Part shown: positions 4,064-9,214 of the stretch, in pieces
How positions within the stretch are numbered: the first letter of the stretch is position 1
Layout of the letters: every line of letters begins with the position of its first letter
DNA from: Chloroflexota bacterium
GTDB lineage: Bacteria > Chloroflexota > Dehalococcoidia > Lucifugimonadales > JADFKI01
DNA length: 10,013 nucleotides
Assembly: GCA_009838595.1 (NCBI GenBank)
Contig: VXRI01000134.1
Coordinates: 1-10,013 of the forward strand
Direction of reading: 5' to 3'
Translations under genes and position numbers: made by a program
The notes under the pieces: model-generated
What the model was told of the DNA's origin: nothing
The model's input: only the letters and a program-made list of their open reading frames with translations
The model's database searches: none

Positions 4064-4909
4064 CTAGACGACGAGCGGCGTGCCTTCGCGGTTTGCCCAC
4101 TCGCCCATAGAGCCGTCGTAGTTTCGCGCCCGGTCGTATCCGAGCAGGGTCAGGATGAACACGCCGTGCGCCGCACGGATGCCGCCCTGTCAATAGGTGA
4201 TGATTTCCTTTTCCGGCGTCGCACCTACATTGGCAAGCATCGCACGGAGTTCGTCCGCAGGCTTGATAGTCTGATGACTGTCGTCAGTGATGAAGTTCAG
4301 CCATTCAAGGTGAACGGCGCCGGGGATTCTGCCCGCACGGGCGTTGCCGCGCGAATTGCTGCCGTCCCACTCGCCGTCCGAACGCACATCGAGGAACACT
4401 ATATCGTCGTTGCCCACATTGGCGACGCCGTAGTCAAGTGTGCAGACGAGGTTGTCGTTGGCTCGTGGCGTGAATGTAACATCCGCGTCCGCCGCCGCGC
4501 TGATAGATGTGGGGCGGCCTTCGTCGTACCACTTTTTCCAGCCGCCGTTGAGCACCTTCACATTCGTGTGTCCGTAGTAGTTGAGCACCCACCAGAAACG
4601 GGTTGACCACAAGCCGCCGTTGCTGTCGTATGAAACGACGAGAGTATCGTCGCCGATGCCCATGCGCTCCATCAATTCCTTCATCGTGTCCGGCGGCGCG
4701 ACCAGAGGATTTTCGCGTGGGTCGCTATCGTAGCCCGGCTCCTTGATGTAATGGTGCACCGGAATGCCCACCGCGCCCTTGATATGCGCCCTACCGTAAG
4801 CGTCATACGGGTCGCAATCGACGATGCGAATGTCCGAGTTGTCTAATCGGGCTTCTAGCCAGTCTCCGTCAACCAAAATGTCCGGTTTCGCGTATCCCTG
4901 AGTCGTCAT
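4064..4909 (-). CDS. Two-domain rhodanese sulfurtransferase, candidate selenoprotein (Sec240 at the catalytic Cys position)
   Basis: Thiosulfate or 3-mercaptopyruvate sulfurtransferase, which moves sulfane sulfur to an acceptor through a persulfide on the active-site residue. The N-terminal rhodanese domain (about 8-130) is the inactive structural repeat, with Asp in place of Cys in VVSYDSNGGLWSTRFWW. The C-terminal domain (about 150-281) contains FLDVRSDGEW and AGRIPGAVHLEW. The active loop then reads EIITY-TGA-QGGIRAAHG. Family members have Cys where this gene has TGA (4190-4192). The frame continues with VFILTLLGYDRARNYDGS and MGEWANREGTPLVV, ending at TAG 4064-4066; 281 residues is the normal length. 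A SECIS-like hairpin follows the TGA. I chose ATG 4909 because AGAGG lies 7 nt upstream; a GTG at 4939 sits only about 11 nt from the predicted transcription start. If TGA acts as a stop, a 239-residue protein lacking the catalytic loop results. Family assignment is firm; selenocysteine is inference, with nonsense mutation or base error as alternatives. The cognate substrate is not resolved. Confidence 0.85.
4160..4181 (-). promoter_or_regulatory. Candidate bacterial SECIS element
   Basis: Immediately downstream of the UGA, minus-strand bases 4178-4173 (CCGTGC) pair perfectly with 4169-4164 (GCACGG) around a three-base loop GGC (4172-4170). Two further pairs (C4181-G4160, A4180-U4161) close an asymmetric internal loop. 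The loop starts 17 nt after the UGA, and its first two bases are both G. Known bacterial SECIS elements have an apical loop roughly 16-37 nt after UGA with a G in the first two loop positions; E. coli fdhF has GGUCU after about 18 nt. The geometry fits, but the same bases also encode the conserved IRAAHG segment, so part of the pairing could be incidental. Confidence 0.55.
4190..4192 (-). other. In-frame UGA at the rhodanese catalytic position (candidate selenocysteine codon)
   Basis: TGA sits between the TAT (Tyr239) and CAG (Gln241) codons, where homologues have the nucleophilic cysteine of the CxGGxRA-type loop. The following base is C; UGAC is a weak termination context. The 41 downstream codons remain in the same frame and family-like, with no frameshift. 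Both Cys codons (TGC, TGT) are one base away, so mutation remains possible. Confidence 0.6.
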
Positions 4910-8305: not shown

Positions 8306-9214
8306 TTGGAACTTGGAATGATAGGGCTTGGGCGAATGGGCGGCAATATGACCTTGCGCTTGCTGCGCGGCGGGCATCGAGTCATTGCTTTCGACCCGGA
8401 CGAATCCGCTCGTCAAGTGGCTGATAGAGGCGGCGCGGTCGCTGCTGGTTCCATCGGAGCTCTTGTATCGCTGCTCGCGCCGCCTCGCGTGGTGTGGGTT
8501 ATGGTGCCGGCGGGTGACACCACAGACAGCACGATAAATACCCTATCCGGTTCGCTATCCGCGGGCGATACCGTAATCGACGGCGGCAATTCCAACTACA
8601 AAGACACAATTCGCCGCGCCGGCGCCTTGCAAGAGCAGGGCATTTCGATGCTAGACGCCGGCACGAGCGGCGGCATTTGGGGGCTAACAGAGGGCTATAG
8701 CCTGATGATTGGCGGTGATGCTGATGCCTACGCGCGGCTCGAACCGATATTCCGTACGCTCGCGCCGGGCGAAGACATTGGCTATGGCCATGTAGGACCG
8801 GCCGGAGCGGGGCATTTCGTCAAGATGGTGCACAACGGCATTGAGTATGGAATGATGCAAGCGTTCGCCGAGGGCTTCGAGCTGATGGAAGCCAAGCAGG
8901 ATATGGACTTGGACCTGGCGCAAATCGCGCATATATGGCGTTATGGCAGCGTCGTGCGCTCTTGGCTGCTCGATCTGACAGCGGCGGCGCTGGACGAAGA
9001 CGGCGATCTGGCAGGCATACAGGCGTATGTTGAAGACTCCGGCGAGGGGCGCTGGACGCTCGAATAGTCCATAGACCTTGCCGTGCCTATGCCTGTAATC
9101 GCTGCATCGTTGCAGGCGCGCTTTAGGTCGCGTCAGGATGCGCCGTTCGGAGCGAAACTGCTCGCAGCGATGCGCAACCAATTCGGCGGGCACAGCGTGC
9201 GCAGGACAGAGTGA
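8306..9214 (+). CDS. gnd: 6-phosphogluconate dehydrogenase (decarboxylating), short type, interrupted by an in-frame TAG
   Basis: Oxidises 6-phosphogluconate to ribulose-5-phosphate and CO2. It starts at TTG 8306 with GGAGG (8293-8297) 8 nt upstream. The dinucleotide fold has GLGRMGGNM (7-15). The acidic Asp30 in VIAFDPDES is what NAD-preferring members of this short (about 300-residue) class tend to have. The substrate motif is DAGTSGGIWGLTEG (117-130), and the catalytic K173 and N177 are in GHFVKMVHNGIEYGMMQ. The frame stops at TAG 9065-9067 after GEGRWTLE. It continues as SIDLAVPMPVIAASLQARF and then RSRQDAPFGAKLLAAMRNQF, ending GGHSVRRTE at TGA 9212-9214. That is the normal C-terminal helical region, giving 302 residues in all, and its TGA overlaps the zwf ATG by one base. 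If TAG terminates, the protein has 253 residues and lacks the last 49. A nonsense mutation or base error (for example from GAG or CAG) is the simplest explanation. Confidence 0.88.
9065..9067 (+). other. In-frame TAG inside gnd
   Basis: TAG is codon 254, between GRWTLE and SIDLAVP. Family members have a variable, often Glu or Gln, residue here (pattern GRWTxExxID), so GAG or CAG to TAG is a one-base change. TAG terminates metH and the sulfurtransferase at their expected ends, so it is not generally reassigned in this genome. Confidence 0.8.

Follow-up and report, generated by a model that had tools for sequence, protein, structure and literature searches.

The locus raises one question: is the only in-frame TGA of a rhodanese gene a stray stop, or is it read as selenocysteine (Sec)? 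The window, i.e. the whole stretch of 10,013 nucleotides that was analysed, corresponds to contig C140 of a 2.42-Mb MAG (421 contigs, 80.5% complete). We first describe the gene and its relatives, then the decoding signal and the machinery, and finally what the protein might do.

A two-domain rhodanese with UGA at the catalytic codon

On the reverse strand, positions 4909-4064 translate into 281 codons followed by a normal terminal stop, and the single internal stop is a TGA. Read through this codon, the gene (4064..4909 including the terminal stop) encodes a 281-residue sulfurtransferase of the thiosulfate/mercaptopyruvate type with two rhodanese stretches (PF00581, 1.2e-36). The UGA is codon 240 (4190..4192, reverse strand); it has the context EIITY-U-QGGIRAAHG and is followed by 41 codons. 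Codons 240-245 (4175..4192, same strand) form the active-site loop, which would read Sec-Gln-Gly-Gly-Ile-Arg. Both assignments come from the translation and the alignment of homologues. In the printed alignment to 1e0c, codon 240 is aligned with Cys230 of Azotobacter vinelandii RhdA, which we take to be the persulfide-bearing residue. Retranslation and this alignment thus bear out the preliminary description of the locus, in which the sole in-frame stop was placed on the nucleophile of a 281-codon rhodanese.

Structurally, the protein belongs to the two-domain TST/MST class, having two rhodanese domains and the nucleophile in the C-terminal one only. No invariant Cys was found in the N-terminal domain of the aligned Sec rows. 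The best solved relatives by sequence are the Thermus rhodanese 1uar and Azotobacter RhdA 1e0c. An AlphaFold2 model made from 24 aligned sequences has a pLDDT of 95.2, and a fold search of the PDB with this model returns Thermus thermophilus 1uar and RhdA 1e0c as the top two hits, each with a TM score of 0.88. In the model, codon 240 is located between a strand (235-239) and a helix (244-255).

UGA and Cys exchange at codon 240

Among the eight genomes of the family, the source MAG included, seven have a match that holds exactly one TGA. These seven are the stretch itself and relatives at 97, 88, 86, 83, 75 and 47% identity, while the eighth genome (G005, 66% complete) gave no match at 1e-30. 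In the tree, the most distant of them, L015 (47%), groups with another clade and may be a paralogue. The same family genomes also contain Cys paralogues, which are stop-free and 31-36% identical.

The wider alignment has 128 rows taken from 124 loci, the latter including duplicates of one record fetched twice, e.g. L012 and L069. Codon 240 is TGA in 94 rows, Cys in 34 and nothing else in any row, and each of the 94 TGA rows has exactly one TGA. The codons 3' of the UGA are conserved among the aligned relatives. An in-frame UGA where homologues have Cys is one criterion for a bacterial selenoprotein gene, and this is what is found here. The preliminary description had proposed looking for Cys or UGA at residue 240 of homologues and had argued that a random nonsense hit would rarely fall on this codon; the family genomes and the alignment agree with a TGA that is more than chance.

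The loci from the named collection are the 80 best among 179 stretches that were confirmed. Their record titles read SAR202, Dehalococcoidia or Chloroflexi(-ota), except for four from Candidatus Binatia or Deltaproteobacteria and one titled Bacteroidota bacterium, which is a distant Cys form. In a survey of the class, 393 genomes were drawn, 184 matched and 142 were tabulated. A TGA is present in 75 of these 142 (G373 being counted through its second match), and the other 67 have no stop in the match; residue 240 was read in part of these 67, and three of the matches are partial. An active-site selenoenzyme would be common in SAR202/Dehalococcoidia.

The public protein records carry the trace of this codon as well. 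Judged from the protein records alone, 118 of the top 120 public homologues are 236-243 residues long, and in 119 the last residue is the Tyr of the motif in front of codon 240. The sole exception to the Tyr ending is P0105 (281 residues), a full-length Cys form, and P0035 (328 residues) is extended N-terminally and ends at the same Tyr. Annotation pipelines had been expected to truncate the gene before its active site, and this is indeed the case: nearly all public predictions seen are about 42 residues short and have lost the nucleophile.

A SECIS-type hairpin follows the UGA

Seventeen nucleotides after the UGA, the transcript can form a 6-bp hairpin of the bacterial SECIS type, CCGUGC-GGC-GCACGG (4164..4178, reverse strand, triloop 4172-4170), which is supported by a published model and by covariation. 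According to a figure legend in PMC13188914, the bSECIS model has an apical loop of 3-9 nt, an upper stem of 4-16 bp, a G in the first two loop positions, a spacing of 16-37 nt and an MFE <= -7.5. We applied it with uninterrupted stems (4, 5 or 6 bp) and a loop starting with G and then G or U. The hairpin agrees with this model (loop GGC, 6 bp, 17 nt; folded in isolation, it has -8.0 kcal/mol). When the whole gene is scanned, 7 of 266 codon frames pass, all of them through the single hairpin that serves codon 240. Synonymous recodings of this part of the gene pass in 208 of 5000 cases with a stem of 5 and in 209 of 5000 with a stem of 6, so the hairpin of this gene alone is only moderately significant. 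The weight of the SECIS evidence therefore lies in the comparison of UGA and Cys forms and not in one gene.

For this comparison, 48-nt segments starting from the UGA were used, 111 of which are distinct (77 UGA, 34 Cys). The model is passed by 73 of the 77 UGA segments and by none of the 34 Cys segments, identically at all three stem lengths; the UGA rows that fail are L015, L095, L097 and L099. A stem between segment positions 14-20 and 24-30 with at least six of seven pairs is found in 65/77 UGA rows versus 2/34 Cys rows, and positions 21-23 are GGC in 71/77 versus 8/34. Twelve UGA rows have fewer than six pairs; a shifted hairpin with the loop GUN is common to ten of them, and a different one occurs in L127 and L133. 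Compensatory changes are seen in L106 and L108, where the stem is CCGUUC/GAACGG and the protein reads RSAN, not RAAH. Other compensatory stems are GCGUGC/GCACGC and ACGUGC/GCACGU.

In the AANS loop variants (L109, L115, L116, L118 and L120-L125), the hairpin is located 8 nt farther from the UGA than elsewhere. The element has shifted here inside a single gene family; L112 of the same clade has it at the common place.

Stem covariation over 62 distinct UGA rows is 0.119, compared with a shuffled mean of 0.049, and none of 500 shuffles, which ignore the relatedness of the rows, is as high. With slid partners the maximum is 0.064. Pairs changed on both sides number 3 of 7, which is equalled by 28 of the 500 shuffles. 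The 16 Cys rows show no excess of covariation. The alignments A3 (64 sequences) and A4 (16 sequences) are each part of the available set. Fold energy is a poorer guide: the 48-nt energy of this gene is unremarkable (z = -1.14), and the mean z barely splits the groups (UGA -0.77 versus Cys -0.35), whereas the geometric model and covariation did. Searching the whole window with Rfam at gathering scores found nothing.

Selenocysteine machinery

The preliminary description called for selA, selB, selD and the selC tRNA in the source genome. Three of the four are plainly there: a stop-free selA (C325), a tRNA-SeC with anticodon tca (C25) and a Sec-type selD that has an in-frame TGA of its own (C397). 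The best selD match holds one TGA in all 13 genomes searched. The fourth, selB, was also found (C391, L165), but its frame is interrupted by a TAG and, five codons away, by a TAA; the close relative G002 has neither stop. If both are real, SelB would lack its C-terminal part. For this particular strain, decoding thus presumes that the two stops are errors of assembly or variants within the strain. In four congeners, selB matches over the cut-off contain no stop, two of these matches being partial, and selB is over the cut-off in 27 of 30 relatives.

In the class survey, selB is present in 68 of the 75 tabulated UGA genomes. The seven misses are 63-87% complete, and no UGA genome of at least 90% completeness among the 75 is without selB. 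All seven UGA genomes that were tested individually, two Binatota included, have both selB and tRNA-Sec. However, selB is also found in 49 of the 67 tabulated genomes with no stop in the match; a genome with Sec machinery need not carry the UGA form.

Together, the UGA/Cys exchange, the hairpin that is absent from the Cys forms and the machinery genes support the reading of Sec in place of Cys. Judged from these comparisons, the locus is almost certainly a functional selenoprotein gene in which UGA-240 would be read as Sec; the actual insertion of Sec, like the substrate and the chemistry, is inferred.

Sec and Cys lineages

The tree contains 117 proteins (83 Sec, 34 Cys) and is midpoint rooted; it excludes L144 and L147 as well as short pieces and identical rows. 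It needs four state changes, at least three of them judging by the starred branches. Sec rows also occur in the groups that contain the f63 Cys clade (18 rows) and a second clade of Cys forms (6 rows), and a change from Sec to Cys is therefore the simpler reading, with the deep forks of the tree unsettled.

Five of the six f63 Cys genomes tested (these five 91-98% complete) have neither selB nor selD over the cut-offs and no tRNA-Sec at 1e-10. In the sixth, G222, all three were found, and selB and tRNA-Sec also occur in three genomes of the second Cys clade. Thus, the Cys form is not restricted to genomes without Sec decoding. Such pairs of Sec and Cys lineages, some possessing selB, selC and selD and others not, are a natural test of the benefit of selenium to a sulfurtransferase.

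Probable transfer, duplication and gene neighbourhood

Four loci, two titled Binatia (or Candidatus Binatia) and two 'Deltaproteobacteria' (L076, L077, L079 and L082), form one group (100/100) nested among SAR202/Dehalococcoidia rows. Together with the family of the source MAG, they fall within a group of ten rows (99/95). The topology suggests that the UGA rhodanese gene was probably passed from SAR202/Dehalococcoidia to Binatota, i.e. between phyla. The two Binatia genomes that were tested contain selB as well as tRNA-Sec, which fits a transfer into recipients that decode Sec. A binning artefact would be less likely for OX638375.1 and OY282432.1, two records titled as chromosomes. The gene also occurs in pairs: L105, L107, L110 and L111 each contain two UGA rhodanese genes on the same strand, with their codons 240 about 0.87 to 1.9 kb apart.

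In the window, an MFS gene, the rhodanese and metH are consecutive, and this order is collinear in G002. A conserved operon was sought around the loci, and no universal partner was seen. The annotated neighbours, five proteins of the window and six at other loci, include no sel genes.

In 18 of the 80 named loci, an arylsulfotransferase-like frame starts approximately where the Sec rhodanese ends, on the same strand, e.g. L081:8847-10034; PF05935 was found in both frames tested.

Another in-frame stop of the window is a TAG at 9065-9067 (forward strand) in a 6-phosphogluconate dehydrogenase gene (8306-9214), where G002 is open. It is either real decay or an assembly error. Sequence damage was considered as a source of stray stops and rejected, as a three-way comparison showed no marked excess of G>T and C>A changes (46 of 295 stretch-unique versus 32 of 226 G002-unique).

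Proposed function and its alternatives

We suggest the following mechanism. The ribosome would insert selenocysteine at UGA-240, directed by the downstream hairpin together with SelB and tRNA-Sec, and Sec240 would thereby replace the catalytic Cys of the C-terminal rhodanese domain. A donor, for example thiosulfate or 3-mercaptopyruvate, could then give up its sulfane sulfur to the selenolate, and a Se-S intermediate would form, from which the sulfur is passed to a thiol. That the Sec240 protein performs sulfurtransferase chemistry is probable. More tentatively, it can be speculated that the use of Sec240 is non-redox, with the sulfane sulfur held as Se-S(-) and Sec speeding its release, and that SAR202 has a two-state Sec/Cys system which is loosely tied to Sec decoding and mobile between phyla.

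A thiol or peroxide redox enzyme on a rhodanese scaffold, in which a resolving Cys or thioredoxin would reduce the Sec, is the alternative that fares best, though we consider it unlikely. Selenoproteins of known function are described in a review as mainly redox or antioxidant enzymes (PMC9312934), and candidate partners exist, as Cys32 is present in 61 and Cys156 in 51 of the 83 Sec rows. However, there is no UxxC motif; the residue at +3 is Gly in 83/83 Sec rows. The only invariant Cys position in these rows is 240 itself, which speaks against a fixed selenenylsulfide partner, and the two-domain fold is a match to sulfurtransferases.

Selenium delivery, in which Sec240 (or the Cys of the other forms) binds selenium and passes it to SelD, is more doubtful still. 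Rhodanese takes up selenium as a perselenide in vitro and its role as a selenium carrier is debated, according to PMC8538045 and PMC9369223, which cite Ogasawara et al. 2001. A role in selenide delivery was also proposed in the preliminary description, but it fits poorly with the five f63 genomes that keep the Cys form without selD, selB and tRNA-Sec. Their gene would have a function independent of selenium metabolism, and an ordinary sulfurtransferase is favoured over a dedicated selenium carrier. Neither does the delivery role agree with the annotated neighbours described above, nor with selB-positive genomes that have no match at 1e-45, e.g. G008 and G015.

Finally, a pseudogene or sequencing error, i.e. 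a chance nonsense TGA in a Cys rhodanese, could be imagined in such a fragmented MAG with other in-frame stops (the TAG at 9065-9067 and the two in selB), but it is rejected as highly improbable, since the UGA is conserved over the aligned rows and the class genomes, the public proteins end at the same Tyr and the downstream codons are maintained.

Comparison with known systems

The preliminary description mentioned rhodanese selenoproteins as listed in metagenomic surveys, and two such surveys do list them. The Sargasso Sea survey of 2005 reports three genes of a Sec 'rhodanese-related sulfurtransferase', COG2897, with the predicted SECIS in its Figure 3 legend (PMC1088965). The GOS survey of 2008 has eight sequences of cd01449 and one of COG2897, plus COG0607 types (PMC2398784). 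Reviews of 2022 (PMC9312934) and 2026 (PMC13188914) retain rhodanese selenoprotein entries, the latter including a 'form 4, UxxG' rhodanese. In the portions of these sources that were available, the COG2897, cd01449 and form 4 entries are given no source organism (PMC1088965, PMC2398784, PMC13188914), and no experiment on a Sec rhodanese is reported in the cited literature to the same extent. A paper on both SAR202 and selenocysteine, whose bin90 is the record of locus L069, does not treat the rhodanese protein in its accessible text (PMC5649159). A search of the open-licence literature found no title on SAR202 rhodanese selenoproteins.

The best NCBIfam match of the protein is the E. coli 3-mercaptopyruvate sulfurtransferase NF008557, which is of the same superfamily and of similar length; the score of 102.5 bits lies below the cut-off of 250, and the protein is not that equivalog. 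The rhodanese domain is also present twice in tandem in 1uar, 1e0c and the Mycobacterium proteins CysA3 and SseA, which are 28-34% identical and have TM scores of 0.85-0.88 against the model. In the printed alignments, 1uar, 1e0c and CysA2 have Cys at the place of Sec240. However, the loops differ, being CRIAER in 1uar, CQTHHR in RhdA and CRIGER in CysA2, compared with UQGGIR here.

The published COG2897, cd01449 and form 4 selenoproteins, as far as their descriptions extend, are like the present one in having Sec and a predicted bacterial SECIS, and the UxxG of form 4 occurs here as UQGG. The published AACY01016424, MQG53192.1 and MCY3690685.1 may be linked to the SAR202 gene, judging by the family names in the papers and by UxxG. 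Sec rhodaneses were thus already reported in 2005 and 2008, and the SAR202 gene adds to this known class.
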